Virus record (IMG/VR): IMGVR_UViG_3300042691_012110 | Coordinates: 1 to 30,642 of that record | Strand: one strand, 5' to 3' | Length of the DNA stretch: 30,642 bases | From: a virus | In this document: positions 6,556 through 25,272 of the stretch, in pieces | Position numbering within the stretch: the first letter of the stretch is position 1 | How the letters are laid out: the number at the start of each line of letters is the position of its first letter | Notes under the pieces: generated by a model | Seen by the model: the letters and a program-made list of their open reading frames with translations, nothing else | Told to the model about the DNA's origin: nothing | Databases searched by the model: none | Program-made: the position numbers and the translations under genes

Positions 6556-7190
6556 TGGCTACTAGTGCCTATTTAGCGGGTAGACGTAGATATACAAGAC
6601 CCCAGGGTATATTATGGGCAAACAACCCTGGAACCCTCTCTAATGGCCTTTATGTGCCTAATGGCATAGAGGTAGGGGCAGACACACAAGAAACAAACCC
6701 AGACCTATTAGATCAGTTTATTATTTTATCTGACCATAATAGAGGGGATATGCAATTTAATACCCAAAGAATTGAACAAAGACAAAGAACGATTAATGGT
6801 CGTATGCGTTCATATCATATTGCAGATAAACTAAACATGTCTGTATCTTGGAATATGCTACCTTCACGAGGATATTCAGGACTAGCCAATTTTGATGAAG
6901 CAACAGGTATAGCACCAAATGAAGGGTCTCAACTAGAATATACAGCAGATGGTGGTGCAGGTGGAGTAGAACTGCTTGACTGGTATGAAACACATCAGGG
7001 GCCTTTCTGGATGTATCTTGCTTATGATAAATATACAAACCTAGAAGGACAAGGTTATGAGTATACTGGTTTAAATAGATACAATCAAATAATTCAAGTT
7101 TATTTTGCAGATTTTAACTATTCCGTCGTAAAGCGTGGAGCAACAAATCATGATCTTTGGAACATATCGGTAACACTGGAAGAAGTTTAA
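6555..7190 (+). CDS. Distal tail (Dit-like) minor tail protein, 211 aa
   Basis: This is a structural tail protein by position, between the tape measure and the large hub gene, where siphoviruses usually encode the distal tail protein that joins tube to tip. The sequence is rich in aromatic residues and apparent beta strands. It has no signal peptide or membrane segment. Stretches such as NMSVSWNMLPSRGYSG and YNQIIQVYFADFNYSVVKRG, with a conserved-looking end (DLWNISVTLEEV), fit a virion beta-sandwich. Its ATG overlaps the last base of the tape measure stop codon, so translation is probably coupled. The assignment is from synteny and general fold character rather than a specific motif. Confidence 0.6.
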   Translation: MATSAYLAGRRRYTRPQGILWANNPGTLSNGLYVPNGIEVGADTQETNPDLLDQFIILSDHNRGDMQFNTQRIEQRQRTINGRMRSYHIADKLNMSVSWNMLPSRGYSGLANFDEATGIAPNEGSQLEYTADGGAGGVELLDWYETHQGPFWMYLAYDKYTNLEGQGYEYTGLNRYNQIIQVYFADFNYSVVKRGATNHDLWNISVTLEEV

Positions 7191-10100
7191 ATGTTTGAAA
7201 GTACCGAATTAAAAGATCACTTTGAAACATCTGCAACAATACAAACAGAGTCACTAGTTCTGGCTGAGTGGAATATGAATATGCCAGATAACATATCCAA
7301 ACTTGGTAACTATAGGTATAGGCCTCAAGAACAAAATTCTCAATTTTTAACGCTAATAAATACTTTTGATCCAGCAGATATTGGTTTGTTCTATACAGGT
7401 GCAACAGATGCTGATGTTGTTATTGATGGAGGGTTTGAAAATAATGGAACACCACAACTTTTTACTTCAACAAAAGAAAAAGTTAAATTATTATATTCTT
7501 TAGAAGATTGTATAAAACCATTTAGACCAAGATCTGGTATTAATAAGGCAGCATTTTTTAACGGTAGATATTTAGCAAATTCTGGCAAGGATATTGCAAG
7601 AAGGCCAAGATATTATATGCCATCTAGATATGATCAATTTAAATATTGGACTTCTTTTAGAACTGAAAACGGTATTGAAAGAGGTATTGCTAAAACAATA
7701 GTTAATGGAAACTATTATATAGATGATGCTGTGCCATTTGTTGTGTATAAAAAAAATGTCCCAACAAATAGAATTATTGTAAAAATGCAAACAAATGTTG
7801 GTGATATAGACCTTGGAGATTTTACAGATATCTCTAGAACGTTTCCAGATCCACTTTATGGCAATGCAAATAAAACAACTCCAACAAGATGGAGAGTTCA
7901 ATATCTTGAAGAAAATAACTGGACTGATGCATATATTTTTAATGAAAACGATTTAAGAGAAGATGGCTCTGCAATTATTTCTAATGATGGATACGTTGAA
8001 TTACAGTATGCGTTAAAAAATATTCCAGACAATTTTAAAGATACTTTTGTTATAGCAGAAACAATCTCTTCCTCAACACTTTTACCAACAGAATCAATTA
8101 ATGGATATGCATATTTAGTTATTGAAAATGAGGGTAGTGTTGGAACATTTCATGTTTGGAATTCAACCACAGAGGAATATGAAACATTTGTACCCGCCTA
8201 TGGTTGGATTTTAGGAAGTGAAAAAATTGACAATAAAACAAGTTTTGTAACAGATTTAACATCTCCGTTATCTTTTATAGAAACAACAAATGGAAAGACA
8301 ATATATAGGGAATTTCAAGATATTCGTGGATTAAGGATTGTTGTAGAAAGAATGAATAAGTTTGATTCTACTTTTGATTTAATTGAAATGTCTCCAAGGC
8401 TTGTTGTTAATATATCTGACAAAGTTATAGAATATAGTATTAAAAAAATACTTTCAGACTTAGGAAACTCTGCTTTACCAGTGGGACAATTGCTGGCTTC
8501 AACTGGAAATTTGTCCATATTTGACGATGACCAAGCATTTAATGACAATAATACTAATAGCATTATTAGTGATTATATTCGTAAAAATATAAAATTTAAT
8601 TTTTATGAAAAAATATTAAATGTAAGCGGATATGATTATTGGGTACCAATTAAAACTTTATATTCAGACGGATTCCCGCAAGCAAATGTAACTGCTGGAA
8701 CATTAGATTTATCCCTAAGAGATTTTTATTTCTTTTTAGAATCTATGCCAGCACCAAGAATGTTAGTAACAGAAGTATCACTTAGTTATGCTATTACATT
8801 AATTCTTGACTATATTGGATTTAGCAACTACGCTTTTTATAGAACAACAAATGAGCCAGAACCAATAATTCCATATTTTTTTATTGCACCAGATCAAACC
8901 GTAGCAGAAGTTTTAAATCAACTGGCAGTATCAACACAAACTGCAATGTTTTTTGATGAATATAATAACTTTATAGTAATGAGTAAAGATTATATGTTGC
9001 CAACAATAGATGATAGAAGCACCAATATTATTTTATCTGGTTCAAATAATCAGTCTGCTAGTGGAATAATTGAAAATCAAACCTCTGGAACACTGCCAAA
9101 CATTTTATCAATAGCATCTGAAGATAAAAAAGTTTATAATAATGGAAAAATTAATTATACAACTAGATATATTCAAAGATCATATGGCAACGTTCGTCAG
9201 GCAAGTATGATTGATAAAGAAAAAACTTGGATATATAAACCAGCCTTACTTTGGGAAGTTTCTGGAACAGACTCAACAAAAACAATTAATGAGGTTGCAT
9301 CTAAACAATCAAAATATGTTCTTGGAGCAATGCCAATAAATTCAGACTTATCCAATAGTGTTCCAACAGTGGTTAATCATCAAATTCAAAATAACGTAAT
9401 AGATCTTGGAGAAAATGTTTATTGGCTTACCAGATATCAAGGTTATTTTTATTCTAACGGAGAAATTATTAGATATGATGCTGCTCAATTTAATGTTACC
9501 CTTGCAATTTGGTATCCTATTCAATCAGATGGCTCATTGCTAGATTCCTCTCCACAAATTGTCTTGCCTGGAAGACTAGCGCCAACTAGTATTATTGACA
9601 ATTTAGATAAAAAAGTTGCAAATGGCGAAATTACAGAAGCACAAAAAGGTGAAGCAATCCAGGGTTGGAGAACATCACATAGACAGGGTAGTAGTAATGT
9701 TTGGATTACAAATAATCAAGAGTATCAAAACTATTTTAAGTCATTACCATTTAATGGAAAAATATATCCTACAGGATTAGTTAGAATTTATACCGTTCCA
9801 TTTTATGAAACAATTGATGGAATTACTCGTTTACAAAATGGTTCAGTTTACGAACATGGGCGTGCACAATTTGGAACACAGGTTACGACACATTCTGCAG
9901 GTATAAATTCATATTGGTCCAACAATGATTATGTCAAAGGATGTGAGATGAAAACAGAGTATTTGTTTACAACCACACTACTTGAAGACATATCCCTTCC
10001 ATCAACATCAACTGGAGCAGCAGGCGTTAACAACACTAAAGCAAGACAGACATCAAGAAATGGAACTATAAAAAACTTCATGTCCTCAAGTTATTCAACT

Positions 10101-11696
10101 GAAACACCAGTTAATAATACAACGTCAACACAATCTGGAACAATCCAGTCATCTGCTTTGGTTATGAATGGTCCATCATTTACAACAACAGAAAAACCAA
10201 TTGACTTAGTTTCATATGTTTATAAAGAATTAAATAATGCATATAAACATTTTGGAACTAGAATAAGAATTATTGGTAAAATTGAAAACAACGAAAGTCG
10301 TAGTCAGACTCCAACAGGAAGCGTAACATACTACCAGGTCGCTGGAGTTAAACCAGATCAAAATGTAAACATTGGTGGTGGTTCTGGAGGTTTAGCAGTA
10401 TTGCTTAATCCAGAAACAAATAATGGATATTATTTTGAAATTGCTGCCTTAACAGAACAAAATATAGAATCATATTTAAAATTAGATAAAAATAACAAAT
10501 CTAGTATTTCAATTAATAACGTAGTATTTTATAAAATCAAAAAAAATTCTTCAAATACAGAAGCCATTCCAGTAAAACTTTGGGGAGGGCTATCAAAAAT
10601 TACAGTTGACGACGGTAGATTTACTGGACAATATAGAATGTCTAGTGAAGAAAATCCAACAGTATATGATCTAGCAGTAGAATATCAAGATATAGGAAAA
10701 ATTAGAAGATTTTTCTTATATATAAATAATCAACTAATTCAGGTTGTAGACGATACAGATCCGCTACCAGTATATAACAATATGGCTCTATTTGTTCGTG
10801 GATCTTCTAGAGTTATGTTTGAAAATATTTACGCACTATCTGAAAACTATTCTCAAAATAGCGTGTTTACAGTTGGAGAAACACTTTCATCAGCATTTGG
10901 CGATAAAGAAATAAATGCTAGTGAGTCTTTTAGAAAATATGCAATGAGTGGCATTGTTCAGTCAACGTATTTATCAGGAATTAGTTCTCAACAACCACCT
11001 AAATATAATATGTATTTTGAAGAATTTGGCTCAATTATGAGAGAGTGTTCTTATTTTGATATTAAATATGATCGTGCATATCCTGCTCTTTACGCTCAAC
11101 TATCTCCAACTTTTAATAAAATAAAAGGATATATCACATCTGGATTTTATGCTGATTCATACGGCGCAGAGTTTTTAGTTTTTAATGCTACAGATACAGC
11201 AATTAATCTTGACGAAACCAGTGGCAACTATTTAAGAATTCAGGGAATTACTTTTACACAGGACACAACTCACGAACTAACTGTTGATGAGTATTTTAAA
11301 AAACGTAGCAATTTTTCTAATCCACAACTAACTAGTTCTTCTCAAATTATTTCTCCGCTTGTTGAAAAAGAAAAATTTGATAATATAAAATTAAGTAGAA
11401 TGATTTATGGAAATAATGAATTTACTCTAGACACTCCATATATTCAAACACAAGACGATGCTGAAAGTTTGATGGGCTGGATTATAGATAAGTTAATGGA
11501 ACCTAAAAAATCAGTTGGTATAAAAATATTTGCAACTCCAACTATTCAACTTGGAGATATTGTAACAATTAATTATAAAGACTCTAATAATTTAGACTTA
11601 GTCACAAAAAATACTTCTAGGTTTGTAGTATATAATATTGAATATGCAAGAAAAATAAATGGTCCAGATATGACTCTTTATTTGGCGGAGGTGTAA
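7191..11696 (+). CDS. Tail hub / tail-associated protein with lectin-like insertions, 1501 aa
   Basis: This is probably the central tail-tip hub and perhaps part of the host recognition apparatus. Its ATG directly follows the previous stop. Residues about 1-390 look like beta-sandwich modules (a segment near 220-290 includes TPTRWRVQYLEENNWTDAYI). Residues about 395-620 match the pattern of gp27-like hub proteins: a strand-rich start (VIEYSIKKIL), LPVGQLLASTGNLSIFDDD, then SYAITLILDYIGF and EVLNQLAVSTQTAMFFDEYN. Residues about 1004-1220 resemble a LamG/concanavalin-type jelly roll (GYYFEIAAL, FFLYINNQLIQVVDD). The C-terminus at about 1420-1501 returns to a hub-like fold (PTIQLGDIVTINYKDS). 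A plausible reading is a hub split by a large carbohydrate-binding insertion. No peptidase motif was recognised. Confidence 0.75.
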   Translation: MFESTELKDHFETSATIQTESLVLAEWNMNMPDNISKLGNYRYRPQEQNSQFLTLINTFDPADIGLFYTGATDADVVIDGGFENNGTPQLFTSTKEKVKLLYSLEDCIKPFRPRSGINKAAFFNGRYLANSGKDIARRPRYYMPSRYDQFKYWTSFRTENGIERGIAKTIVNGNYYIDDAVPFVVYKKNVPTNRIIVKMQTNVGDIDLGDFTDISRTFPDPLYGNANKTTPTRWRVQYLEENNWTDAYIFNENDLREDGSAIISNDGYVELQYALKNIPDNFKDTFVIAETISSSTLLPTESINGYAYLVIENEGSVGTFHVWNSTTEEYETFVPAYGWILGSEKIDNKTSFVTDLTSPLSFIETTNGKTIYREFQDIRGLRIVVERMNKFDSTFDLIEMSPRLVVNISDKVIEYSIKKILSDLGNSALPVGQLLASTGNLSIFDDDQAFNDNNTNSIISDYIRKNIKFNFYEKILNVSGYDYWVPIKTLYSDGFPQANVTAGTLDLSLRDFYFFLESMPAPRMLVTEVSLSYAITLILDYIGFSNYAFYRTTNEPEPIIPYFFIAPDQTVAEVLNQLAVSTQTAMFFDEYNNFIVMSKDYMLPTIDDRSTNIILSGSNNQSASGIIENQTSGTLPNILSIASEDKKVYNNGKINYTTRYIQRSYGNVRQASMIDKEKTWIYKPALLWEVSGTDSTKTINEVASKQSKYVLGAMPINSDLSNSVPTVVNHQIQNNVIDLGENVYWLTRYQGYFYSNGEIIRYDAAQFNVTLAIWYPIQSDGSLLDSSPQIVLPGRLAPTSIIDNLDKKVANGEITEAQKGEAIQGWRTSHRQGSSNVWITNNQEYQNYFKSLPFNGKIYPTGLVRIYTVPFYETIDGITRLQNGSVYEHGRAQFGTQVTTHSAGINSYWSNNDYVKGCEMKTEYLFTTTLLEDISLPSTSTGAAGVNNTKARQTSRNGTIKNFMSSSYSTETPVNNTTSTQSGTIQSSALVMNGPSFTTTEKPIDLVSYVYKELNNAYKHFGTRIRIIGKIENNESRSQTPTGSVTYYQVAGVKPDQNVNIGGGSGGLAVLLNPETNNGYYFEIAALTEQNIESYLKLDKNNKSSISINNVVFYKIKKNSSNTEAIPVKLWGGLSKITVDDGRFTGQYRMSSEENPTVYDLAVEYQDIGKIRRFFLYINNQLIQVVDDTDPLPVYNNMALFVRGSSRVMFENIYALSENYSQNSVFTVGETLSSAFGDKEINASESFRKYAMSGIVQSTYLSGISSQQPPKYNMYFEEFGSIMRECSYFDIKYDRAYPALYAQLSPTFNKIKGYITSGFYADSYGAEFLVFNATDTAINLDETSGNYLRIQGITFTQDTTHELTVDEYFKKRSNFSNPQLTSSSQIISPLVEKEKFDNIKLSRMIYGNNEFTLDTPYIQTQDDAESLMGWIIDKLMEPKKSVGIKIFATPTIQLGDIVTINYKDSNNLDLVTKNTSRFVVYNIEYARKINGPDMTLYLAEV

Positions 11697-11697
11697 A

Positions 11698-12531
11698 GTG
11701 GCAAGCGAAAATTCAGGTGGTGGTACATCCAAAATAATTAGGGCTAATACAAGAGAAGACAGAGTTATATCTACAACAAAAAAAGAACCCGAATTTACTG
11801 GTCCTTCAAAATATAGTCCATACGTTCCGCCTGTAGTTAAATCAGAACCACCTAAAAAATCTTCTGTTTCTTATAAAGCAATCGCAGATGCTTTTCAGCC
11901 AGCAGTTTCAAATGGATTATTTATTGGACCAATACCATTAGGAACTGTTCGTACAGAAACTGGATATAAAAAAGAACCAATTACAGAAGAGGTTATAATT
12001 ACAGGTGCAGGACCAACTAGTTTTATAACAAGTAGCATAGTTGCAACACCATCAACGCCAACTTTGCCAGTAATAATTTCTACTCCACCACCACCAGTTA
12101 AAACTGCAACCTTAGATATTATTTTATTTGATGATGAAACAACGCCAATAGATACAATGGCAGATTTAATATTTGAAAATATTGGTGGACAAGAATTAAT
12201 TAATATTACAAGGTCTGATATTGTGAATGGTCAAAAAATATCATACCAACCTATTAAAAATTTATCATCAATACAGCAGCGATATAATCCTAATAATATT
12301 CTTAGTCTTCAACAAACCTCAGATAAATATTTTGCTGGATTTTCAATAAAACTAGAAGACAAAATTCCAAACCAAGGAAATGGTATAAATGGAGAAAATA
12401 TCTATATTGAGGAAAGCACGGGAGACTTGATTATTGAGTTTATTAATATAAACAGTGATGAGCAGATTGAATTACAAATTACCACAGATGGTACAATATA
12501 TGAAGCAGATCTTGGAGAAATAGCCTCATGA
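11698..12531 (+). CDS. Putative minor tail protein with Pro-rich linker, 277 aa
   Basis: The start is GTG, one base after the preceding TAA, with GGCGGAGGTG just upstream as ribosome binding site. Residues 1-130 are low-complexity and rich in Pro, Ser, Thr and Lys, including a PPPPVK stretch near residue 125. Residues about 135-277 form a compact acidic region with alternating hydrophobic residues (TLDIILFDDE, YFAGFSIKLEDK, DLIIEFININ), suggesting a beta domain. Lying in the tail cluster between the hub and the next fibre-like gene, it is most likely a structural connector or tip protein. The flexible Pro-rich part would act as a spacer. I do not recognise a specific family. It overlaps the next gene by four bases (ATGA). 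Confidence 0.5.
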   Translation: MASENSGGGTSKIIRANTREDRVISTTKKEPEFTGPSKYSPYVPPVVKSEPPKKSSVSYKAIADAFQPAVSNGLFIGPIPLGTVRTETGYKKEPITEEVIITGAGPTSFITSSIVATPSTPTLPVIISTPPPPVKTATLDIILFDDETTPIDTMADLIFENIGGQELINITRSDIVNGQKISYQPIKNLSSIQQRYNPNNILSLQQTSDKYFAGFSIKLEDKIPNQGNGINGENIYIEESTGDLIIEFININSDEQIELQITTDGTIYEADLGEIAS

Positions 12532-13673
12532 TAACTAATACTGGCAAAACCATTATTGCAAAATATTTGCTTGGTCAAGCACCAGCCTATGCCTCTTATC
12601 TTGCTATTGGTTGTGGTGCTACACCATTAACTACTGGAGATCCTCTTGGAAATTATTCAGCAAAACAAAATTTAGATTTTGAAATGTTTCGTGTTCCAAT
12701 CTCTTCAAGGGGATTCGTAAATGAGGGTGGATTAGATAAAATTGTTTTAACCGCAGAACTTCCAACAGAAGAAAGGTATGAAATTTCAGAAATTGGAATT
12801 TATTCTGCAGGATCAAATCCATCTGCTGGAGCATATGATAGCAAAACAGTATTTGCTTTTACACAAACAGAAAATTGGCAATACGTTACTGGTGGATCAG
12901 CAGTAGCAATTGACACATTTTCTAGTGCATTAGATGAGCCTGAGTATGATAATATTATTGCAGTTGCAGATCCAGTTTTTCAAACAAGCGCAGATAATCC
13001 AATATTTTTTAAATCTCCAAGAGTAGAAAGATATGAAAGACCAAGATTTTTAAATAATACAATTTTAATAAAGGGTAATGAGTCAGATCTTGACATAGAG
13101 TCTGATAGTGGTCCAGCGCAAGATACTTTTGAAATAAGTGCAGGATCAAATTATATTAAACTAAGCGGTGCAACAGTTGATTTTACAAGAAACTCTCCAA
13201 CAGATGAACTAAGATTGGCGTTTTCAATAGTAAACAGGGATGGAACTTACGGATCTGGCACACAGCCAGAAAGGGCTAGAGTTTTGGTTTCATTTGAAAA
13301 TACAAACGGAACACAGTTTGCAAGACTTGAAGCAGAGGTTATTGATGATAGTAGTGGTGGACAATATGATTTTGCAACAGAAAGATATTTTGTTGTAACA
13401 AAGCAACTTCAACAACTATATAGAACATCTGAATTTGATTGGAATGCAGTTTCAGTGGTCAAAATATATGCGTGTGTTATTGATGGAGTCAATCCATCTG
13501 GCAACTATTATGTGGCGCTGGATGCTTTAAGACTAGAAAATATTGGTACAGTAAATCCACTTTATGGTTTAACTGGATATTCAGTAGTTCAAAACATAGA
13601 CGCATCAACTATTGTAAAAAGTCCTAATACTAGCAATTATATTGAGTTTAGATTTTCAGTTGGTGTAACATAA
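12528..13673 (+). CDS. Minor tail / fibre-like protein with C-terminal jelly-roll, 381 aa
   Basis: The N-terminus (ITNTGKTIIAKYLLGQAPAY, then LAIGCGATPLTTGD) and the following LTAELPTEERYEISEIGIYS resemble a module I associate with baseplate or fibre attachment proteins of phages, covering residues about 1-100. Residues about 165-340 look like a carbohydrate-binding beta-sandwich (NYIKLSGATVDF, LRLAFSIVNRDG, NYYVALDALRLEN). The C-terminal 35 residues form another strand-rich piece. A receptor-binding or tip decoration role is plausible from this architecture and position. The ATG overlaps the previous stop by four bases and its own TAA overlaps the next ATG by one base. The exact family name is not certain. 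Confidence 0.6.
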   Translation: MITNTGKTIIAKYLLGQAPAYASYLAIGCGATPLTTGDPLGNYSAKQNLDFEMFRVPISSRGFVNEGGLDKIVLTAELPTEERYEISEIGIYSAGSNPSAGAYDSKTVFAFTQTENWQYVTGGSAVAIDTFSSALDEPEYDNIIAVADPVFQTSADNPIFFKSPRVERYERPRFLNNTILIKGNESDLDIESDSGPAQDTFEISAGSNYIKLSGATVDFTRNSPTDELRLAFSIVNRDGTYGSGTQPERARVLVSFENTNGTQFARLEAEVIDDSSGGQYDFATERYFVVTKQLQQLYRTSEFDWNAVSVVKIYACVIDGVNPSGNYYVALDALRLENIGTVNPLYGLTGYSVVQNIDASTIVKSPNTSNYIEFRFSVGVT

Positions 13674-14173
13674 TGGCGGATGCAGGAATTAAAAAGATAA
13701 GAATAAAACAAGGAAATCTTCCTACAATAAATGTGAATGAAGAAGGATATGTTTTAAAGTACAGGGTAGTTTCCGAAGACAAAAATAGAACATCTCAATG
13801 GTCACCAATATCAGTCATTCAACCAGGATATACATATGTTGGTGGTGATATATCTTTTAACAAATCAGGACAAGTTGCAACCTTTGCTTGGGATTCTGTT
13901 TCAATACAAATAGATGGAAATCAAATTAGAAGATCACATGAATTTGATATATGGTTAAAATGGGATAGAAGCGATGGGGGAGATTGGATTTATAAACAAA
14001 GAATTGATGGCACCAATGCTTCTTTTCCAATTCCAAGTACATATACAATAAATGGAGTAGTTCAAGGTTCTGCACCTAATAAACTTTCAATAGAAGTATA
14101 TTTAAAAGGAACACCAATCACTAGAGATTCTTCTTTTTTATTAGTCTATGAAGATGGTCCACACACCGTTTAA
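13673..14173 (+). CDS. Putative minor tail protein, FN3-like, 166 aa
   Basis: This small protein is rich in beta strands and aromatic residues. Residues about 18-50 (EGYVLKYRVVSEDKNRTSQW, then SPISVIQPGY) have the look of a fibronectin type III or Ig-like strand pair. Residues about 75-160 continue with strands such as HEFDIWLKWDR and KLSIEVYLKG. There is no signal peptide or membrane segment. It starts at the ATG sharing a base with the upstream TAA, so it is translationally coupled to the fibre-like gene. Structural proteins with such folds commonly decorate tail tips or assist adsorption. The function here is inferred from context only. Confidence 0.5.
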   Translation: MADAGIKKIRIKQGNLPTINVNEEGYVLKYRVVSEDKNRTSQWSPISVIQPGYTYVGGDISFNKSGQVATFAWDSVSIQIDGNQIRRSHEFDIWLKWDRSDGGDWIYKQRIDGTNASFPIPSTYTINGVVQGSAPNKLSIEVYLKGTPITRDSSFLLVYEDGPHTV

Positions 14174-14198
14174 TGATATACTTTAATAGGAGGAAATA
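14174..14198 (+). promoter_or_regulatory. Possible extended -10 element plus strong ribosome binding site
   Basis: This is one of the few gaps in the tail module. It holds TGATATACT (14174-14182), which fits an extended -10 box, and a near-perfect Shine-Dalgarno AGGAGG at 14188-14193, five bases before the ATG at 14199. No -35 box resembling TTGACA lies 17 bases upstream, and the -10 would leave little or no untranslated leader before the ribosome binding site. The ribosome binding site is convincing; the promoter is weak. Confidence 0.35.
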
Positions 14199-14639
14199 AT
14201 GGCTAAGGTACCACTACCAGAAAGAGGACAACCTCTTGATGTTACATATTTATATAGTTTAGTTGATGCTGTAAATGACCTTTCTACACAGGTTGCGTCT
14301 ACAACTACTAACAAAACTGTTATAGATACAACTAGCGCTGGCAAACAAGAAATTAAAACTTCTAATTCAAGAATAATTGGTGGCTATGTTGAAGTTGCTA
14401 ATAACTCAACAGTTTCTGCTGGAAATGAAAAAACTTTTACATATGACTTTAAAGACTTTAAGTATCCACCAATTGTTTCGGCTACTCCAGTAAATATTGG
14501 ACAAACACCAGCAGGACAAAACGTAAATGTTATTTTAAAGAGTGTTACAGAAACAAGAGTTGAAGGCATTGTGAGATTTGGGGCTTCTGGCGACTTATCT
14601 TTAGCAGTACATTTGATTATTGTTGGAATTCCAAACTAA
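14199..14639 (+). CDS. Putative tail tip / fibre structural protein, 146 aa
   Basis: The N-terminus (VPLPERGQPLDVTYLYSLVD) begins a short helical region with a run of Thr, followed from about residue 50 by a beta-rich domain (RIIGGYVEVANNSTV, FTYDFKDFKYPPIVSATPVN) ending in VHLIIVGIPN. The phrase ‘PPIVSATPVN’ and the ending recall small structural proteins and H-type lectin-like tips that I remember from T4-like cyanophages and other marine phages; that is memory, not a search. It has its own strong ribosome binding site (AGGAGG), suggesting higher expression than its coupled neighbours, as expected for a multi-copy virion component. It is the last gene of the tail cluster. Confidence 0.55.
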   Translation: MAKVPLPERGQPLDVTYLYSLVDAVNDLSTQVASTTTNKTVIDTTSAGKQEIKTSNSRIIGGYVEVANNSTVSAGNEKTFTYDFKDFKYPPIVSATPVNIGQTPAGQNVNVILKSVTETRVEGIVRFGASGDLSLAVHLIIVGIPN

Positions 14640-14649
14640 TAATAAACTT

Positions 14650-14841
14650 ATGATTTTTTGTAAAAAATGTAGGGGTAGAACTTTTGTTGATAGACAATAC
14701 AGCAGTATTCAACATATGGAAACATATTGTGTTGTGTGTGGATTAAGAAGATTTTTTCATCCTCCGACAGAAAGTGAAGAAGGAAAATGGTTACTAGCAA
14801 AGGAATTATCCAGGGCGAAATTTACAATAACGAAACTGTAA
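14650..14841 (+). CDS. Small zinc-ribbon protein, 63 aa
   Basis: The frame could begin at 14620, but that start lies inside the previous gene. The ATG at 14650 gives a protein starting MIFCKKCRGRTF, which places a CxxC pair near the N-terminus as usual for zinc ribbons. The second pair is CVVC near residues 31-34. Four cysteines in two knuckles about 25 residues apart predict one structural zinc site and a nucleic-acid or protein-binding role. The C-terminal half (ESEEGKWLLAKELSRAKF) is helical. The last 55 bases overlap the next gene in another frame. It opens the non-structural region and could be a small regulator, but its target is unknown. Confidence 0.6.
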   Translation: MIFCKKCRGRTFVDRQYSSIQHMETYCVVCGLRRFFHPPTESEEGKWLLAKELSRAKFTITKL

Positions 14842-15329
14842 TAAAAGGAAATAAAAAAATATGGTTTCTAAATAATGACTTGGTAAGGCTTCACCATAGT
14901 TCACGATCTACTGGAATGGTTTCTGTTTATAACATAACCAAAGATAGAATTGAAACTTGTTTACGTTCAGATTTTAGAAAAAAAAGAGAAAGAGCATATA
15001 CAGTTGCAGAGACTGCTAAATTAATTAATCGTCATAGAAAATATATGCCAAAATTAATTAAAACTGGAATGATTCCACCACCAGTTGGTGCAAGGCTAAA
15101 TGGTGAAAGAGGTTGGCAAATTAGATCTTATTATTCAGAAAGCATGGTAAGAGAGATCCGTGCTATACTGGCTACTATACATATAGGACAACCAAGAAAA
15201 GATGGACTTATAACAAATAATATGACACCCACAAGCCAAGAATTGACACGGCGAATGGGAGACGGTATACTTACATATACAAAGACAGAAGATGGTAGAT
15301 TTATTCCTGTTTGGGCAGAGAATATTTAA
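14787..15329 (+). CDS. MerR-like helix-turn-helix DNA-binding protein, 180 aa
   Basis: The ATG is preceded by GAAGGA. Residues about 70-105 (YTVAETAKLINRHRKYMPKL, then IKTGMIPPP) read as a MerR/excisionase-type winged helix: an alpha-alpha turn followed by the ‘tG.iPpp’ wing typical of the family. A basic patch RKKRER precedes it. The N-terminal 60 residues are strand-like and the C-terminal part is a helical and basic tail. It probably binds DNA at the boundary between tail and replication genes, perhaps as a regulator, or as a replication-initiation or excision-type accessory factor. No recombinase gene is nearby to pair with an excisionase. A consensus promoter lies inside its 3' end. The overlap with the upstream zinc ribbon suggests coupled expression. 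Confidence 0.65.
   Translation: MVTSKGIIQGEIYNNETVIKGNKKIWFLNNDLVRLHHSSRSTGMVSVYNITKDRIETCLRSDFRKKRERAYTVAETAKLINRHRKYMPKLIKTGMIPPPVGARLNGERGWQIRSYYSESMVREIRAILATIHIGQPRKDGLITNNMTPTSQELTRRMGDGILTYTKTEDGRFIPVWAENI
15161..15169 (+). promoter_or_regulatory. Intragenic extended -10 candidate TGCTATACT
   Basis: The same nine bases, TGCTATACT, also occur in the gap at 25243-25251. Here they fall inside the helix-turn-helix gene, followed closely by another TATAC (15176-15180) and about 100 bases later by a full promoter at 15243-15271. No -35 match is seen at the expected spacing. It is listed as a possible accessory start site or operator-like repeat only. Confidence 0.2.
15243..15271 (+). promoter_or_regulatory. 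Consensus sigma70-type promoter within the end of the HTH gene
   Basis: TTGACA at 15243-15248 is a perfect -35 hexamer. A spacer of exactly 17 bases leads to TATACT at 15266-15271, a five-of-six match to the -10 consensus. Transcription would start near 15278-15280, inside the last 50 bases of the helix-turn-helix gene, and read into the 70-aa gene at 15349 and the whole replication module. This is the best promoter match I found in the window. It would let the replication genes be transcribed independently of the tail genes by the host polymerase. Confidence 0.7.
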
Positions 15330-15348
15330 TAGCAGAAATGGTGGGGTA

Positions 15349-15561
15349 ATGGAAAACGAAAACACAAAAATATCAGTAGCACTTGGATATACTCTTAATT
15401 TAGGAAATTTTCAATCACTAAGGTTTGACTTTGGAATAGTTGACTCTAAGCGTGATGGCGAAAATACAGAACAGGCCTTTGAAAGAATATACAAATTTGT
15501 TGAAGACAAATTAACAGAAAAAGTTAAAGAGGCAGAAGCAGAGTCTGATAGCAAAGAATAA
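15349..15561 (+). CDS. Conserved-looking small phage protein of unknown function, 70 aa
   Basis: The open frame extends back to an ATG at 15292, but that start lies inside the upstream gene and lacks a good ribosome binding site. The ATG at 15349 has GGTGGGG at 15340-15346 and gives a natural N-terminus (MENENTKISVALGY). Residues 7-30 form probable strands (ISVALGYTLNLGNFQSLRF) and 41-65 an acidic helix (EQAFERIYKFVEDKL). The pattern, strands then a helix with an acidic tail, recurs in small proteins of other actinophage-like genomes as I remember them, without known function. It is the first gene after the consensus promoter and shares a base with the next ATG. Confidence 0.65.
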   Translation: MENENTKISVALGYTLNLGNFQSLRFDFGIVDSKRDGENTEQAFERIYKFVEDKLTEKVKEAEAESDSKE

Positions 15562-15869
15562 TGGCTGAACGCAAAGACCGAATGGCTTTGCTAAGTAGAT
15601 ATAACAAACTACATCTACAAAAGTACGAAGCCAAAAGCAACATGAATCTCAATGTTGAGCAATGGGCTGCAGATGCACTTGTTGAATCTTATGGAATAGG
15701 AATATGTTATGACTTATTGGATTATTATTTTAATATTGCTTCTTCCCCTTCTTGGAATTACTTTGCATACAATGCGGAAAAAATATTGGAAGCAAAATTA
15801 GAAGTAGAACAAGATATTAAAGAAAGACAGGAAAGAAGAAAATTAGCAAGAAGGTGGATTAGTGAATAA
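15561..15869 (+). CDS. Hypothetical protein before helicase, 102 aa
   Basis: I do not recognise a family. The protein is mainly helical, highly charged at both ends (MAERKDRMALLSRYNKLHLQ; ERQERRKLARRW), with a more hydrophobic centre (ADALVESYGIGICYDLLDYY). It has no Cys pairs, membrane segment or signal peptide. It begins at an ATG overlapping the previous TAA by one base and ends eight bases inside the helicase gene, so it is co-translated with the helicase. A role as a helicase loader or partner is possible because such small helical proteins often precede phage DnaB genes, but nothing in the sequence proves it. Confidence 0.55.
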   Translation: MAERKDRMALLSRYNKLHLQKYEAKSNMNLNVEQWAADALVESYGIGICYDLLDYYFNIASSPSWNYFAYNAEKILEAKLEVEQDIKERQERRKLARRWISE

Positions 15870-17085
15870 TACAGAAGCAAAATTAATTAGTGCCGTATTA
15901 AATGATAAACAAATTCATGTTTTGCTGCAAGCCAACATTGACAATCTTTTAAGAACTCACAATGATGTATGGAATTTTATTAGATTGTATTCAGAAAACA
16001 ACCAATCAGTTCCACCAGCATCTTTGGTAGTAGAAAAATTTAGAGATTTTGTTCCAGTAGATGGCGTTGGAGCAACAAAGCATCACCTTGAAGAACTACA
16101 AGCAGAATATTTAAATGATAGCCTAAAAGATATTTTGCGTAATGCAGCATCTGAAGTTCAGGTTGGCAATGGCTCAAATGCTCTTGAACATTTAATTACA
16201 AAAACATCAGAGTTAAAAAAGAATACTGCTGCAATTAGAGATATTGAAGTTACGGATTTAGAGTCAGCAGTTGCATATTTTGAAAATGTAAAGAAAATGC
16301 AAGATCTTGGACATATTGGTATTAAGACAGGTTTACCAGGATTTGATAACTATTTACCTTCTGGAATTATGCCAGGACAACTTGGTGTGTTCTTAGCATA
16401 CCCAGGTATTGGTAAATCTTGGCTAGCATTATATTTCGCAGTACAAGCATGGAAACAAGGTCGCAGTCCACTTGTTATAAGTCTTGAAATGTCTGAAACG
16501 GAAGTTCGTAATCGTGTATTTGCAATTATGGGTGAAGGCTTATGGTCTCACCGCAAACTTAGCAATGGAGAAGTAGAAATTGATATGCTTAAAAAATGGC
16601 ATGCTGAAAAGTTAGCGGGTAAACCAGAATTTCACATCATCTCAAATGATAATGGCGGAGATGTAACTCCATCTGTTATACGTGGAAAAATTGATCAATA
16701 TAGACCAGACTTTGTTATCGTAGACTATTTACAACTTATGTCTCCAAACCAAAAATCTGATAATGAAACAGTACGTATGAAAAACTTATCTCGTGAACTT
16801 AAATTAATGTCAATTAGTGAAGAGGTTCCTATTATTGCTATTTCTTCTGCTACGCCTGATGATGTTAAAGATCTTTCTACACCGCCAACTTTAGGACAAA
16901 CTGCATGGTCTAGACAAATTGCTTATGATGCTGATTGGGTAATGGCACTTGGTCGTGCTACGAATAGTGATATTATTGAATGTGTATTTAGAAAAAATAG
17001 AAATGGTTTTATGGGAGACTTTTTAGTTCAAGTAGACTTTGATAGAGGATATTATAGATATAAAGACTATGAGGATAAAGCATGA
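15862..17085 (+). CDS. DnaB-like replicative DNA helicase, 407 aa
   Basis: This is a hexameric 5'-3' helicase that unwinds DNA ahead of the polymerase. The start is GTG with AAGGTGG upstream (15851-15857). Residues 1-110 resemble the DnaB N-terminal helical domain. A linker leads to the RecA-like ATPase core: Walker A at 181-186 (PGIGKS, with K185), a conserved segment PLVISLEMSETEVRNRVFAI, and Walker B ending at D288 with DYLQLM. Near the C-terminus, FRKNRNGFMGDF matches the arginine-finger loop region of DnaB (‘.KnRnG..g’). The length is a little under the usual 450 or so. It overlaps both neighbours and heads the replisome block. It is distinct from the RecA-like gene at 23450. Confidence 0.92.
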   Translation: MNNTEAKLISAVLNDKQIHVLLQANIDNLLRTHNDVWNFIRLYSENNQSVPPASLVVEKFRDFVPVDGVGATKHHLEELQAEYLNDSLKDILRNAASEVQVGNGSNALEHLITKTSELKKNTAAIRDIEVTDLESAVAYFENVKKMQDLGHIGIKTGLPGFDNYLPSGIMPGQLGVFLAYPGIGKSWLALYFAVQAWKQGRSPLVISLEMSETEVRNRVFAIMGEGLWSHRKLSNGEVEIDMLKKWHAEKLAGKPEFHIISNDNGGDVTPSVIRGKIDQYRPDFVIVDYLQLMSPNQKSDNETVRMKNLSRELKLMSISEEVPIIAISSATPDDVKDLSTPPTLGQTAWSRQIAYDADWVMALGRATNSDIIECVFRKNRNGFMGDFLVQVDFDRGYYRYKDYEDKA

Positions 17086-17807
17086 AAAATAAAAAAATTA
17101 TTTTTGAAGCATCAAGCCAACATTCAGAAATTTTATTAAGTCCACCAACTCCTGCAACTAATGTTGTGCCTGAATGGTTTAAAAAACAAAAAAATTACTC
17201 AAATGATGAAAACAATATATTAAAAGCACATAAAAAAAGAAATAATTTTAGTACATATAAAATGTGTGTTCCAATAACAGACAGCATAACTAGTGGATAT
17301 ATGATGTTAAGCCCAGCAGATATACTTATAGAAAATGTTGGAAATGAAACACACTATGTTCCATATATTAACTGGAAAACAACTTTTGAAGTTGTTGATT
17401 TGCAGCCACCAGAGGCAGTTGCAAACTATCCAATACCAGTAGGATTTAGTTCGGAATCTTTTAGATGGATGAATGATTGGAAAGTAACAACTCCAAATGG
17501 ATATAGTTTATTTATTACACATCCATTACATAGACATGATTTGCCATTTTTTACATTAAGTGCAATAGTTGATGCAGACAAACACCCTAATAAATTGTTA
17601 TTGCCATTTTTTGTTAAAAAGGGTTTTGAAGGTATAATTCAAGAAGGAACTCCAATTGCACAAATTATGCCTTTTAAAAGAAATAATTGGAAATCAGAAA
17701 AAAAATCATTTAAAAATGAAACAACTATATTTTATGATAATTTTATTAAATTAAATTTTGCAAGAACTTATAAAAATAAAATTTGGACTAGAAAAAAGTA
17801 TACGTAA
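17082..17807 (+). CDS. DUF6065-like protein, copy A, 241 aa
   Basis: Function is unknown. I recognise the family (DUF6065 as I recall it) by PEWFK near the N-terminus, PIPVGF in the middle, and the signature GYSLFITHPLHRHDLPF around residues 141-156 (H147), followed by AIVDAD (D164, D166) and GFEGIIQEGTPIAQIMPFKR at about 180-199. The pattern ‘IxDxD … G …GTPIAQI’ resembles motifs III and IV of trimeric dUTPases and dCTP deaminases (D-x-x-Y/G … G-x-x-I-A-Q-L); that link is my inference. The C-terminal 35 residues are Lys-rich. It overlaps the helicase stop by four bases and abuts the primase. A second, divergent copy lies at 19424. Confidence 0.7.
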   Translation: MKNKKIIFEASSQHSEILLSPPTPATNVVPEWFKKQKNYSNDENNILKAHKKRNNFSTYKMCVPITDSITSGYMMLSPADILIENVGNETHYVPYINWKTTFEVVDLQPPEAVANYPIPVGFSSESFRWMNDWKVTTPNGYSLFITHPLHRHDLPFFTLSAIVDADKHPNKLLLPFFVKKGFEGIIQEGTPIAQIMPFKRNNWKSEKKSFKNETTIFYDNFIKLNFARTYKNKIWTRKKYT

Positions 17808-18731
17808 ATGATTAAAGATTCATATACAGCAGAACAAGTTAAACGTATCTTAACTGGCTCTGGTATTGATATTGAAGCAGAGTACGGAACTGATTATATT
17901 ATTTTTTGTCCGTATCACAATAATAATAGAACTCCTGCTGGAGAAGTGTCAAAAGATCACGGAATGTTTTTTTGTTTTGGATGTCAAACCACAAAAACTT
18001 TAATTGAATTTGTAATGTATACATCAAATAGAACATACTTTGAAGCAGTTAGATATATTAAAAGCAAAGAACAAGAAACAAGTATTGAAGAATCTATTAA
18101 CAAAACATTAATAAATAAACCAGAGTTTATTCAATATGACGAGTTATTAATTAAAAGATTAAATAATCAAGCATTAGAATCTCCTAGGGCAATTAGATAT
18201 TTTGAAGGAAGAAAAATCACTAAAGACTCAATAGATAAATTTAGTCTTGGATATTCTGAAAAGCAGGATTCTGTAACTATTCCAATTCATTCTCCAGACG
18301 GAATGTGCATAGGGTTTGTTGCTAGAACTGTTGAAGGCAAAGAATTTAAAAATACACCAGGCTTGCCAAAAGGAAAGATTCTTTTTAATTTACATAGAAT
18401 TAAGACGTCAAATATTGTTTATGTAGTAGAATCATCTTTTGATGCAATAAGATTGGATCAAGTAGGTTTCCCTGCCGTTGCTACGTTGGGGGCTAATGTT
18501 TCTGCAGCACAGATAAGACTATTAGAAAAATATTTTAATAGTATTGTTTTAATTGCAGATAACGATGATGCAGGAGTAATCATGAGAGACAAGTTGATTG
18601 AAAAACTTGGACCCATTGTTACTTCTGTTTATATAGATAAAAAATATAAAGATATAGGCGATATGGATGATGAGGCAATTAAAAAATTGGAGTTTCAGTT
18701 TGACAATTCTATCATCGGCATGTTAAAATAG
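17808..18731 (+). CDS. DnaG-like DNA primase, 307 aa
   Basis: It makes RNA primers for the lagging strand. The ATG directly follows the previous TAA. The N-terminal zinc-binding domain carries a CHC2 set: C34, H37 (CPYH), C56 and C59 (CFGC). A linker containing RAIRYFEGRKITKDSIDKFS, which matches DnaG core sequences, leads to the TOPRIM domain with E208 (VVESSFDAI), the ATLGANVS loop, and the acidic metal motif D251, D253, D254 (ADNDDAG). The length is about half that of bacterial DnaG. The C-terminal helicase-binding domain is absent, as in many phage primases. It sits between the two DUF6065 copies and beside the probable ssDNA-binding gene. Confidence 0.92.
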   Translation: MIKDSYTAEQVKRILTGSGIDIEAEYGTDYIIFCPYHNNNRTPAGEVSKDHGMFFCFGCQTTKTLIEFVMYTSNRTYFEAVRYIKSKEQETSIEESINKTLINKPEFIQYDELLIKRLNNQALESPRAIRYFEGRKITKDSIDKFSLGYSEKQDSVTIPIHSPDGMCIGFVARTVEGKEFKNTPGLPKGKILFNLHRIKTSNIVYVVESSFDAIRLDQVGFPAVATLGANVSAAQIRLLEKYFNSIVLIADNDDAGVIMRDKLIEKLGPIVTSVYIDKKYKDIGDMDDEAIKKLEFQFDNSIIGMLK

Positions 18732-18760
18732 ATAAAAGCATACAAGGAGAAAAAAATAAT

Positions 18761-19417
18761 ATGACTATAGTAAAGGGACTAAAAAACATTAATGCCCTAG
18801 TTGACAAACCAAAATATGATGAAAACTCTCCAAAGGTAAGATGGTTAAAACTTGCCGACGGACAATCAGCAAAAATCAGATTCATTGAAGAACTTGATGA
18901 AGATTCTGCAAACTATAATCCCGAAAGAGGGTTAGCACTTGTTGTAAAAGAACACGTAAATCCAAAAGACTATAAACGCAAGGCTGTAGACACAATGGAA
19001 ACAGAAGGTCGTGACTGGGCAGAAGAAATGCACCGTAAAGATCCAAAGGCTGGCTGGAGAGCACGTCTTCGTTTTTACTGCAATGTTCTAGTAGACGACG
19101 GCATTGAGGCACCATATACCGCTATTTGGTCAATGGGTGTTAGCAAGCAATCAGCATTTAATACAATTCGTGAGTATGCTCTTGAAACAGGCAGCATCTC
19201 AAATGTAAACTGGAAATTAAAGCGTAATGGTCAGGGTACTGAAACAAGTTATACATTAATTCCATCTGCACCAGATACAGAACCATATGATTGGTCAGCA
19301 GTTAAGCCTTATCCGCTTGAGTTAGCACTAAAGAAAATTCCTTATGCTGAACAAGAGGCATTTTATTTAGGGTTTGATACTCCATCTTTAACTTCATCAA
19401 GTAATGCAGATTGGTAA
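18761..19417 (+). CDS. Probable single-stranded DNA-binding protein, 218 aa
   Basis: AAGGAGA at 18744-18750 gives a good ribosome binding site in a 29-base gap, so this gene is probably translated independently and more strongly than its coupled neighbours, as expected for a stoichiometric DNA-coating protein. Early residues (KVRWLKLADGQSAKIRFIEE) look like an OB-type first strand. The middle has a basic aromatic segment (DPKAGWRARLRFYCNVLVDD) and the C-terminus is Ser-rich with terminal Asp-Trp. No zinc site like that of T4 gp32 is visible. Its position between primase and polymerase supports the call, but the family identity is not certain. An alternative is another replisome accessory protein. 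Confidence 0.55.
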   Translation: MTIVKGLKNINALVDKPKYDENSPKVRWLKLADGQSAKIRFIEELDEDSANYNPERGLALVVKEHVNPKDYKRKAVDTMETEGRDWAEEMHRKDPKAGWRARLRFYCNVLVDDGIEAPYTAIWSMGVSKQSAFNTIREYALETGSISNVNWKLKRNGQGTETSYTLIPSAPDTEPYDWSAVKPYPLELALKKIPYAEQEAFYLGFDTPSLTSSSNADW

Positions 19418-19423
19418 AAATAC

Positions 19424-20167
19424 TTGAAAAAAATTAGTTTTGTTCCAGTTAATGCAAGGGTAGAAAATAATATACCTATGCCAAAACCAGCAAAACTATA
19501 TATTCCAGAATGGTATAAGGAATCTCATTCGTTTTTTAATTTTGAAAATAATTCTTATGTAAATAAGTTATCTTTTTCAAATTATGGGGTTCCTTCTACT
19601 ACTATGAAAATGTGTATGCCATTTTTAGATACTTTTTCTTTTGGATACATACAAGAAACTTGGTCTGATATTTTTATAGAATATAAAAACAATAAGGTTA
19701 TTTATCATTATGCCTATAGTCCAGAACCAGAGTTTCCAATTATTCAGGAAAGACCATTAGAACTTTTAGGTAAAATACCAGTTCCAGTTGGTTTTAGAGG
19801 AGATATTTTTTTTAATTGGCCAAGGGTTTGGAATCCAATTTTACCAAAAGGTTATAGTTCAATAATTACTCATCCACTTAATAGAGACGACTTACCATTT
19901 AAGTGTTTATCTGGAATTATTGATTCTGATAGATATTTTTCTCCTGGAAAAGTAGGATTTTTTATAAAAGATGGATTTACTGGATTAATACCAAAAGGAA
20001 CTCCTATGTATCAAATAGTTCCCTTTAAAAAAGAATCATGGGAAACCAAAAAACTTAGTAATAAAAATAAAATTTTAAAATCTTTAGAAATTCAAAAAAA
20101 TAATATTTTTTCTACTTTTTATGGTGGATATAAAAAAAATTATTGGAATAAAAAAAGTTTTAAATGA
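19424..20167 (+). CDS. DUF6065-like protein, copy B, 247 aa
   Basis: This is a paralogue of the protein at 17082. It shares PEWYK, KMCMP, a GKIPVPVGF stretch, GYSSIITHPLNRDDLPF, then GIIDSD and GFTGLIPKGTPMYQIVPFK, with the same order and spacing. Both proteins also end in Lys-rich tails. Overall identity outside these blocks looks low, so the duplication is old or one copy was acquired separately. The start is a TTG with no good ribosome binding site, six bases after the previous stop. The N-terminal KKISF aligns with KKIIF of copy A, which supports the TTG over the internal ATG at about 19480. Function is unknown; a nucleotide-metabolism or nucleic-acid role is possible. It overlaps the polymerase gene by four bases. 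Confidence 0.7.
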   Translation: MKKISFVPVNARVENNIPMPKPAKLYIPEWYKESHSFFNFENNSYVNKLSFSNYGVPSTTMKMCMPFLDTFSFGYIQETWSDIFIEYKNNKVIYHYAYSPEPEFPIIQERPLELLGKIPVPVGFRGDIFFNWPRVWNPILPKGYSSIITHPLNRDDLPFKCLSGIIDSDRYFSPGKVGFFIKDGFTGLIPKGTPMYQIVPFKKESWETKKLSNKNKILKSLEIQKNNIFSTFYGGYKKNYWNKKSFK

Positions 20168-23100
20168 TGAATAGTAAATATGTAGGCTTACATGTACACA
20201 CTCATTATTCATTATTTGATGGTGTTGCTACTCCAGAAGAATATATAGACCGAGCAGTTGAACTTGGTATGCCAGCATTGGCTATCACAGATCACGGAAC
20301 CTTATCTGGGCATCGGGAACTGTACCGAATTGCAAAAGCAAAAGGCGTAAAGCCTATTCTTGGCTTAGAAGGATACATGTGTGCAGACATATCTGATAAA
20401 AGAGATAAGTCTGAAAGAGAAGGTCAACAAGATCTTGTCTACAACCACATTATTCTTCTAGCCAAGAACCAAAAAGGTTTAGAAAATCTTAATAAAATTA
20501 GTGAGATTGCATGGACAGATGGATTCTTTAAAAAACCAAGGTTTGACTTTGAGATACTGCAAAAATATAAAGAAGGTATTATTGTAACGTCTGCCTGTCC
20601 AAGTAGCGTTTTGGTTAAAGCATTAGAAGAACAAGAGTTTGCTCTTGCTAAAAAACACATAAAATGGTTTAAAGATAACTTTGGTAGCGATTACTATATT
20701 GAGGTAATGCCACACAACACTCCTGAAATAAATAAATATTTGCTTGAACTTGCAGACGAGTTTAACATAAAGGTTGTTGTAACTCCAGATTGTCATCATT
20801 CAGATACGTCTCAAAGAGAGATACAAGAATTTAAATTACTTTTAAATACACATGCAAAAATTGATAAAGAGGCATCATACGAAAAATCTAAAAAGAAAAA
20901 AGATATGATGGAAAGACTTGACTATCTTTACGGGGCTGATCGTAATATAACATTTAATAAATTTAATATTCATTTAATGTCTTATGAAGAAATTAAAGCA
21001 GATATGCAAAAGCAAGGTATTGATAGAGAAGATATATACTCAAACACATTACTATTAGCAGATACAGTAGAAGACTATAACATTCAGGATGGATTAAATC
21101 TTCTTCCCGTTCAATATAAAAATCCAGATCAAGAGTTAGCAAACTTAGCATTTGCAGGACTTGAAAAGTATAGACTTAATAGCAATTGGATTGGCAATGA
21201 TGTTTATGAACAAAGACTTGATGAAGAGTTAGAGATTATTCGCAATAAAAAGTTTGCACCTTATTTTTTGGTAGTTAGCAACATGATTAATTGGGCAAAG
21301 AAAGAAGGAATTCTTGTTGGTCCAGGTCGTGGATCATCTGCTGGTTCTTTAGTATGTTATTTACTTGGTATTACAACAATTGATCCAATAGAGCATGGCT
21401 TATTGTTTTTCCGTTTTATTAATCCAGATCGTAATGACTTTCCTGACATTGATACAGATATTCAAGATACACGTCGTGACGAAGTAAAAGATTATTTAGT
21501 TAGACAATATAGACACGTTGCCTCTATTGCAACCTTTTTAGAATTTAAAGATAAAGGTGTTGTAAGAGATGTTGCAAGAGTATTAGATATTCCATTAACA
21601 GATGTTAACAAGGTTTTAAAATTAGTTGATACTTGGGATGAGTTTTGTAGATCAAAAACCACAGAATGGTTTAGAGAGAAATATCCAGAGGTAGAAATTT
21701 ATGGGGAACAACTACGAGGTCGTATTAGAGGTACTGGCATTCATGCTGCTGGTGTGGTTACTAGTAAGGATCCAATCTTTAGGTTTGCACCGTTGGAAAC
21801 TCGCTCTTCTCCTGGATCCGATGATCGCATACCTGTGGTTGGTGTTGACATGGAAGAGGCTGAAAAGATTGGTCTTATCAAGATTGATGCGCTTGGTTTA
21901 AAAACATTAAGCGTAATTCAAGATGCAATTGCAATGATAAAAGAAAATCACTATAAAGAAATAGATTTATTATCTTTAGATTTATCAGATCCTAAAGTTT
22001 ATGAGATGCTTTCAGACGGGTATACAAAAGGCGTATTTCAATGTGAAGCAACACCATATACAAACCTATTAGTTAAGATGGGCGTAAAAAACTTTAATGA
22101 ACTTGCAGCATCAAATGCCCTTGTTCGTCCAGGAGCCATGAACACTATTGGTAAAGACTATATTGCTCGTAAACATGGTAAACAAAATGTTTCATATACC
22201 CATCAAATTATGAAAGAATTTACTGATGATACATATGGGTGTATTCTATATCAGGAACAGGTTATGCAGGCTTGCGTTTATCTTGGTGGGATGACAATGG
22301 CAGAGGCAGACAAAGTAAGAAAGATTATTGGTAAAAAGAAAGATGCAAAAGAGTTCAATATTTTTCAAGACAGGTTTGTTGCTGGGGCGAGCAAGTTCAT
22401 CTCTCCTAATCAAGCCCTTGATCTATGGCATGACTTTGAAGCGCATGCGGGTTATTCGTTCAACAAGTCTCATGCGGTTGCTTATTCTACGCTCTCGTAT
22501 TGGACGGCGTGGTTAAAATATTATTATCCGCTTGAGTTTATGTTTGCTCTTCTTAAAAATGAAAAAGATAAAGATGGTCGTACAGAATATTTGATTGAAG
22601 CAAAGCGTATGGGAATTTCAATTAAACTTCCTCATATTAATGATTCTGATTTAGATTTTAAAATTGAAGGTAAAGGAATTCGTTTTGGTCTCACTGGAAT
22701 TAAGTTTATTTCAGATAATATTGCACAAAAATATATTAATGCAAGACCATTTAACAATTATAAAGAGTTAGAGGAGTTTACATTTACAAAGGGTAATGGA
22801 GTAAATAGCAGAGCATTAAATGCTTTAAAGGTAATTGGTGCAGCGACCTTTCCAGATAATCCTAGAAATGATGCAGAAATTAAAGAAAATATTTATGAGT
22901 ATTTAAATCTTCCAGAGTTCAATATAACAATACCTTCACACTATTATGCATTTATTCAAGATGTTTGTGACTTTGAAGAAAAAGGTTCTTTTGTTTTATT
23001 GGGAATGGCTAAAGCAATTAAACGAGGAAAGGGATGGTCAAGAGTTGAAATTTTGGACAAGACTGGGTCTGTTGGTATATTTGATGATGAAAGTACCACT

Positions 23101-24463: not shown

Positions 24464-24641
24464 ACCTAAATTTTCAACATACCCTGGTAAGTGGCCTTGT
24501 AAAACTTGTCAAGAAATTGTAACAACTTTAAGATATTGGAAAGAAACTGGAGATGCAACTTGGATGTGTTCTAAAAAACATATATCAAAAGTTGGATTAG
24601 TGCCACCCAAAAGAAAGAAAAAGGACTTTATAAATGAGTGA
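24456..24641 (+). CDS. Small zinc-binding protein, 61 aa
   Basis: The ATG lies eight bases before the end of the recombinase gene. The protein carries CKTC near residues 15-18 and, after a WKETGDATW stretch, a Cys-Ser-Lys-Lys-His segment (C38, H42), so a CCCH-type or incomplete zinc knuckle is likely. The C-terminus is strongly basic (PPKRKKKDF). A small basic zinc protein between a recombinase and a nuclease may bind DNA or one of these partners. No specific family is recognised. It overlaps the next gene by eight bases, so the three genes are probably translated together. Confidence 0.55.
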   Translation: MLEPKFSTYPGKWPCKTCQEIVTTLRYWKETGDATWMCSKKHISKVGLVPPKRKKKDFINE

Positions 24642-24933
24642 AAAAAATGAGTCTAAAAGAATTGGTGCAAAGCAACACAAGAACTCTGGACGTAATACTA
24701 AAAAAGGTGATGCTACTTGGAGAAATTTTGTTGTTGATTTTAAAGAAGCCGAAAAATCATTTACTTTAAATAAGGATGTTTGGGCTAAGGTGGTTACTGA
24801 CTCAATCCAGGCGGGTAGAGATAAATCTCCAGCAATTATTGTCATACTTGGAAAAGGTAATACAAAGGTAAGACTTGCTATAATTGAAATGAATATGCTA
24901 GAACAATTAACAGAGGAGAAAATAAATGACTAA
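24634..24933 (+). CDS. Hjc-like PD-(D/E)XK nuclease, probable Holliday junction resolvase, 99 aa
   Basis: It probably cleaves branched DNA. The pattern fits small archaeal-Hjc-like nucleases found in many phages: an N-terminal acidic residue and Lys (E6, K8), a Gly/Ser loop (HKNSGR, 15-20), KKGDAT with D26, then VVDFKEA with D35 and K37 as the (D/E)xK pair, followed by SFTLNKDVWAKVV, which resembles the conserved ‘ksfslske’ segment. A final strand (SPAIIVILG) completes the compact core. The metal-binding site is D26, D35 and K37. The first acidic residue of the (D/E)xK pair is Asp rather than Glu. It overlaps both neighbouring genes. The fold call is fair; the exact substrate is inference. 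Confidence 0.6.
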   Translation: MSEKNESKRIGAKQHKNSGRNTKKGDATWRNFVVDFKEAEKSFTLNKDVWAKVVTDSIQAGRDKSPAIIVILGKGNTKVRLAIIEMNMLEQLTEEKIND

Positions 24934-25240: not shown

Positions 25241-25242
25241 CC

Positions 25243-25251: not shown

Positions 25252-25272
25252 TAATACAAACAAAGGATAAAA

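Follow-up and report, generated by a model that had tools for sequence, protein, structure and literature searches.

The analysed stretch of DNA, a virus record of 30,642 bases and 33% G+C (the window), very probably holds a dual-coded promoter of the housekeeping-sigma type at positions 15243–15271, where it would drive the replication genes from inside the coding sequence that precedes them. Selection at silent sites is strong on both hexamers of this box and on the stretch leading from the −10 hexamer to the predicted transcription start, and is absent from the 17-base spacer. We infer that the box initiates transcription and is read by the main sigma factor of the host.

The sequence-only reading had placed TTGACA-17-TATACT at 15243–15271 on the + strand, within a 180-codon open reading frame at 14787–15329, and the match was confirmed at that place. 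The −35 hexamer TTGACA (15243–15248) is spelled by the codons TTG ACA (Leu-Thr), the −10 hexamer TATACT (15266–15271) falls within the codons GGT ATA CTT (Gly-Ile-Leu), and the silent sites of the spacer between them (15249–15265) are free to vary. A further constrained stretch, 15272–15279, runs on to the predicted start at 15278–15279. The bacterial sigma70/SigA promoter consensus is TTGACA-17-TATAAT. The box agrees with it at 11 of 12 hexamer letters and in the spacing, which lies within 16–18 bases, but it differs from such promoters in being a candidate that sits wholly within a coding gene.

The gene that carries the box in its final 30 codons encodes a 180-residue, MerR-like helix-turn-helix (HTH) protein (phrog_9440; 14787–15329, + strand) with Streptomyces phage annotations. 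The case for a MerR-like fold is weak: the structure model has a pLDDT of 71, and the fold search gave weak MerR-type matches with a best E of 0.18 and none at or below 0.001. Annotated genes on the + strand run from the tail genes (tape measure and minor tail proteins), through a small open reading frame and the HTH gene, to the replication module.

Intragenic promoters occur in both bacteria and phages; that of lambda int, which lies within xis, is one example. As in lambda, a promoter in the end of one gene would serve the next genes; unlike the lambda case, the box was recognised through silent-site conservation in environmental relatives rather than transcript mapping. It is thus a clear and useful fresh case of an already known phenomenon, the promoter inside a gene. 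In mycobacteria, the available part of one study reports that synonymous recoding creates intragenic start sites, with a SigA −10 consensus of TANNNT (PMC10653884). There too, as far as that part goes, synonymous choice decides where transcription starts in an actinobacterial coding stretch, but as an unwanted by-product, whereas the choice here is apparently kept by selection. In the literature searched, which included few subscription papers, we saw neither this promoter described nor transcript starts given for these phages.

Silent-site conservation in close relatives

Relatives were fetched through peptide words lying outside the box (the best 80 of 506 and the best 80 of at least 349), and were therefore not selected by the box. 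For the HTH gene, 155 loci entered the comparison; 42 were skipped because fewer than 120 of the 180 residues matched the window or the gene was incomplete, and 40 were duplicates, leaving 74 distinct genes with the window included. The number skipped fits the distant clade described below plus two single loci, L083 and L128. The lowest protein identity measured in this close-relative group is 78%.

Across these 74 distinct genes, TTGACA and TATACT are both exact in every one, whereas 14 different spacers occur between them. On the tree, the five codons that cover the hexamers (Leu, Thr, Gly, Ile and Leu) show no silent change. Elsewhere in the same gene, the codons for these residues that remain unchanged number 0 of 9 for Leu, 3 of 15 for Thr, 2 of 12 for Gly and 4 of 18 for Ile. 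Flanking and spacer codons changed repeatedly: eight times each at Glu 15240 and Arg 15249, nine times at Arg 15252, 16 times at Gly 15258 and 15 times at Thr 15279. Positions 15261–15278 are identical in 72 of the 74 genes.

Silent changes were also counted by parsimony over 28 window genes in up to 31 relatives. On this count, for which Poisson expectations and p values are rough (parsimony counts, with rates averaged per amino acid and gene), the hexamer codons had 0 silent changes against 17.2 expected, and the hexamers were identical in 31 of 31 relatives. The spacer codons accumulated 18 changes against 15.5 expected in the same 31 relatives. Codons 15261–15278, with 0 changes against 17.8, ranked second among separate six-codon windows (8602 scored), and among the 132 promoter-like sites that lie inside one gene, out of 140 in the window, the box ranked first (p 3e-8). 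A random-draw test (0 of 200,000) was set aside as evidence, its zero arising by construction, as every other Leu codon in the HTH gene has changed.

A pair of motifs set 17 bases apart by a spacer that is free to change is the pattern expected of a promoter. Hexamers kept letter for letter while nearby silent positions drift thus very probably mark a working promoter. Conservation of the hexamers beyond codon constraint was the comparison that the sequence-only reading had itself put forward as able to overturn it, and with 0 changes against 17.2 and 74 of 74 genes exact, the promoter survived.

Alternative explanations for the constrained letters

As a bare sequence match, the box is not unusual; what exceeds chance is its conservation at silent sites. 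The earlier claim that so good a match is rare in 30 kb fails, since at spacing 17 with one mismatch the window holds 2 sites against a shuffle mean of 0.93, and 62% of 60 shuffled windows contained at least one. Wider scans behaved similarly, with 5 sites against a shuffle mean of 2.87 at spacing 16–18 and one mismatch, 10 against 11.4 at spacing 17 and up to two mismatches, and 96 against 90.3 in a looser scan of 5500–25400. Chance sites do occur: a near-equal site on the − strand at 17952 (TTGACA-18-TATTAT, 11 of 12 letters), which only 2 of 30 relatives share in identical form, was treated as one. The shuffle mean and this site would favour a functionless chance match at 15243–15271 as well, but the absence of silent change, the identity in all 31 relatives and the exact hexamers in all 74 genes make that explanation very improbable. 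Second on constraint, after the box, came another − strand site with 11 of 12 letters, at 27806 (p 5e-4), for which two relatives were comparable over the whole site, neither of them identical.

Promoters are hard to find in tightly packed phage genomes because consensus matches arise by chance. With no experiment, silent-site conservation over dozens of environmental relatives sets a single convincing candidate apart from some 130 look-alikes, and the approach yields a testable list of promoters together with a likely transcript map of the replication module.

RNA polymerase might instead bind the constrained letters without starting there, the box serving as a sigma-dependent pause or roadblock for transcription that arrives from upstream. 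According to the available part of one report (PMC1939733), −10 motifs within coding sequences have been proposed to work in this way in some genomes, and nearby constrained elements, those at 15161, 12489 and 6433, have a −10 hexamer with no recognisable −35. The box, however, keeps a full −35 hexamer at 17 bases, and the next gene has a conserved ribosome site, as for a promoter, so that a pause is a slim prospect. The letters could also form an operator, bound by the HTH protein or by a different regulator, with their likeness to sigma70 elements secondary; the box does lie in a gene whose product probably binds DNA. Here the constrained letters are two sigma70 hexamers at the canonical distance and the 17-base spacer changes at the expected rate, which argues against a sequence-conserved operator between the hexamers and leaves this explanation a slimmer prospect still; a promoter with an overlapping operator is possible. 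Control of the promoter by the HTH protein, as suggested by the sequence-only reading, gained no evidence: the spacer codons vary at the expected rate, and the matches to a MerR-like fold are weak. The window also has an antisense open frame at 15135–15365, and an overlapping antisense gene or an RNA structure could in principle hold silent sites. That frame contains internal stops in 16 of 31 relatives, three stretches folded no better than their shuffles (z 0.68, −0.30 and 0.04), and either element would also constrain the spacer, which makes this account extremely improbable.

Predicted transcription of the replication genes

On the promoter reading, host RNA polymerase would bind TTGACA and TATACT at 15243–15271 and begin transcription near 15278–15279. 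A start near 15278–15280 is consistent with the end of the constrained block at 15278. The resulting RNA would have a leader of about 70 bases, reach its first gene at 15349 behind GGTGGGG, and extend on into the genes for helicase, primase and SSB. The Leu-Thr and Gly-Ile-Leu codons of the HTH protein would be restricted to just those synonymous codons that write out the hexamers, and the presumed purpose is to express the replication genes independently of the tail genes. The earlier proposal of a sigma70-type promoter placed to serve the replication module apart from the tail genes gains support from the conservation of the hexamers (0 changes against 17.2; 74 of 74).

The first gene behind the predicted promoter (phrog_5189; 15349–15561, + strand) had its start re-assigned from 15292, the position given by the open-reading-frame caller, which was rejected in favour of 15349 behind GGTGGGG. 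The ATG at 15292 is lost in 12 of 52 sequences through GAC in place of GAT. The 32 aligned sequences keep a GGTGGG-like ribosome site closely followed by a start codon, which in the window falls at 15349. The downstream module (15561–19417, + strand) starts with a phrog_11101 gene and includes a DnaB-like helicase (15862–17085), a phrog_7084 gene (17082–17807), a DNA primase (17808–18731) and SSB (18761–19417), all on the + strand. A DNA polymerase III alpha-type enzyme and a UvsX-like recombinase also belong to the replication module. The scanned region held no excess of terminators (5 against 7.9 expected). Genes of the phrog_7084 family, at 17082–17807 and 19424–20167, flank the primase and SSB genes; the pair may be mobile insertions, as a match occurs in only 11 of 31 relatives.

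The likely reader of the box is the housekeeping sigma of an actinobacterial host. A search of seven relatives, whose records may be incomplete, found neither sigma70 region 2 nor region 4, and its controls were detected. WhiB was found in six of the seven and, among 14 control genomes, only in the actinobacterium. The presence of WhiB together with the lack of a detected sigma70 region 2 or 4 points to an actinobacterial host and its main sigma as likely. The search for a phage RNA polymerase was uninformative on single-subunit enzymes, as its own controls were silent. According to the available part of one report, a sigma-70 factor is encoded by two phage isolates of freshwater Nanopelagicales (PMC10202952), so the absence of a phage sigma is not settled for actinophages in general.

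Strong sites, with at least 11 of 12 letters, were also located relative to genes in four long relatives with crude gene calling. They are over-represented between genes, where there lay 5 of 12 such sites in G010 (0.77 expected), 7 of 19 in G025 (1.06 expected), 5 of 15 in G012 (1.11 expected) and 1 of 10 in G017 (0.29 expected). Perfect 12-of-12 matches to TTGACA-17-TATAAT occur at G010:C1:61590, G012:C1:36953 and G017:C1:14637, outside the stretch covered by the window. These three have similar spacers, each lies 341 from the next called open-reading-frame start, and they are apparently the same site.

Distant relatives and other elements embedded in codons

In a distant clade (loci L084–L123), the HTH protein is 23–28% identical to that of the window. 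The register of the box is absent there: the 28 distinct end sequences shown match it at 5–8 of 12 letters; L128, which is cut short, was left unscored in this comparison. The clade's 40 HTH genes include 32 distinct ones, in which the tightest constraint among 164 windows falls on the one encoding Ile-Ile-Leu-Tyr-Thr-Lys (ATATTGTATACTAA), with 1 change against 20.7 expected. That stretch contains TTG TAT ACT in 32 of 32 genes, and the upstream CTT and AAA codons are also invariant in all 32. Relative to the window's register, this TATACT is shifted 10 bp downstream, and the hexamer 17 bases above it is TTYTCA, a poor −35. Other windows of the distant-clade HTH gene are nearly as constrained, for example one near the gene start with 2 changes against 21.8. 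The distant-clade TATACT may represent the promoter rebuilt in the same place; if so, it shows how a dual-coded promoter can be replaced without leaving its gene.

Stanwilliamsviridae phages of Streptomyces (TunaTartare and others) have a homologous HTH gene, at about 35% identity, and share the gene order in which helicase, primase and SSB genes follow it. They differ from the window in the register itself. From the 125 matching records, 15 were fetched, and the end sequences listed are those of 14 Streptomyces phages and the environmental locus L083, with Coruscant (L248), which was missed by the anchor, left out. TTGAGA-17-TAT(T/G)GT, a weak match with 9 of 12 letters, appears in 3 of the 15 listed sequences and the remainder score 3–8 of 12, so that conservation of the register across Streptomyces phages was rejected as weak and not general. 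Among 50,697 named phage records, the nearest matches to the HTH protein stay under 60% identity.

There is about an even chance that this phage group carries a set of promoters written in codons, mostly near gene 3′ ends, with five candidates in the window and the one in the HTH gene rebuilt roughly a turn of DNA (10 bp) away in the distant clade. If this is true, silent sites carry the genome's transcription map. Among the eight most constrained separate windows, four have a −10-like hexamer on the coding strand, compared with 7.9% of tiles (Fisher p 0.002); the other four have none on that strand, and two of the eight have one on the other strand. The four are the box itself and the elements at 15161–15169, 12489–12497 and 6433–6438. 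Strong constraint also occurs at 25648–25665 in the Cas4-like exonuclease gene (0 changes against 11.9) and at 20419–20436 in the DNA polymerase gene (2 against 17.2), in both cases with no promoter-like motif.

Three of the candidates, all on the + strand, resemble a −10 element. Within the HTH gene itself lies a candidate extended −10, TGCTATACT (15161–15169), with no recognisable −35. Its TGnTATACT is present in 74 of 74 genes, GAT replacing GCT in two, and 15159–15176 shows 2 silent changes against 16.5 expected. Near the end of the gene at 11698–12531, a second extended −10 candidate, TGGTACAAT (12489–12497), falls in the most silent-site-constrained window of all, 12484–12501 (TGGTACAATATAT), with 0 changes against 18.2. 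All 26 relatives aligned there keep GGT ACA ATA TAT, and the base before GGT is always T (26 of 26) though the residue varies among Asp, Ser, Asn and Gly. This element ends 30 bases short of the tail gene at 12528. At the end of the tape-measure gene, a candidate −10 hexamer TATAAT (6433–6438) is found in 22 of 22 aligned relatives, and the surrounding 6427–6444 (GTGTATAATTATAA) has 2 silent changes against 17.4.

A sister candidate with both hexamers, TTGACA-18-TAAAAT with TG before the −10, is situated before SSB in the end of the primase gene (18700–18729, + strand). TTTGACA-N18 with TGn-TANNNT is present in 31 of 32 sequences (the window and 31 relatives), the sole miss being an 8,714-base contig (G026), and its hexamer codons show 4 changes against 14.1 expected. 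Several relatives have about 350 bases of extra sequence between this element and SSB.
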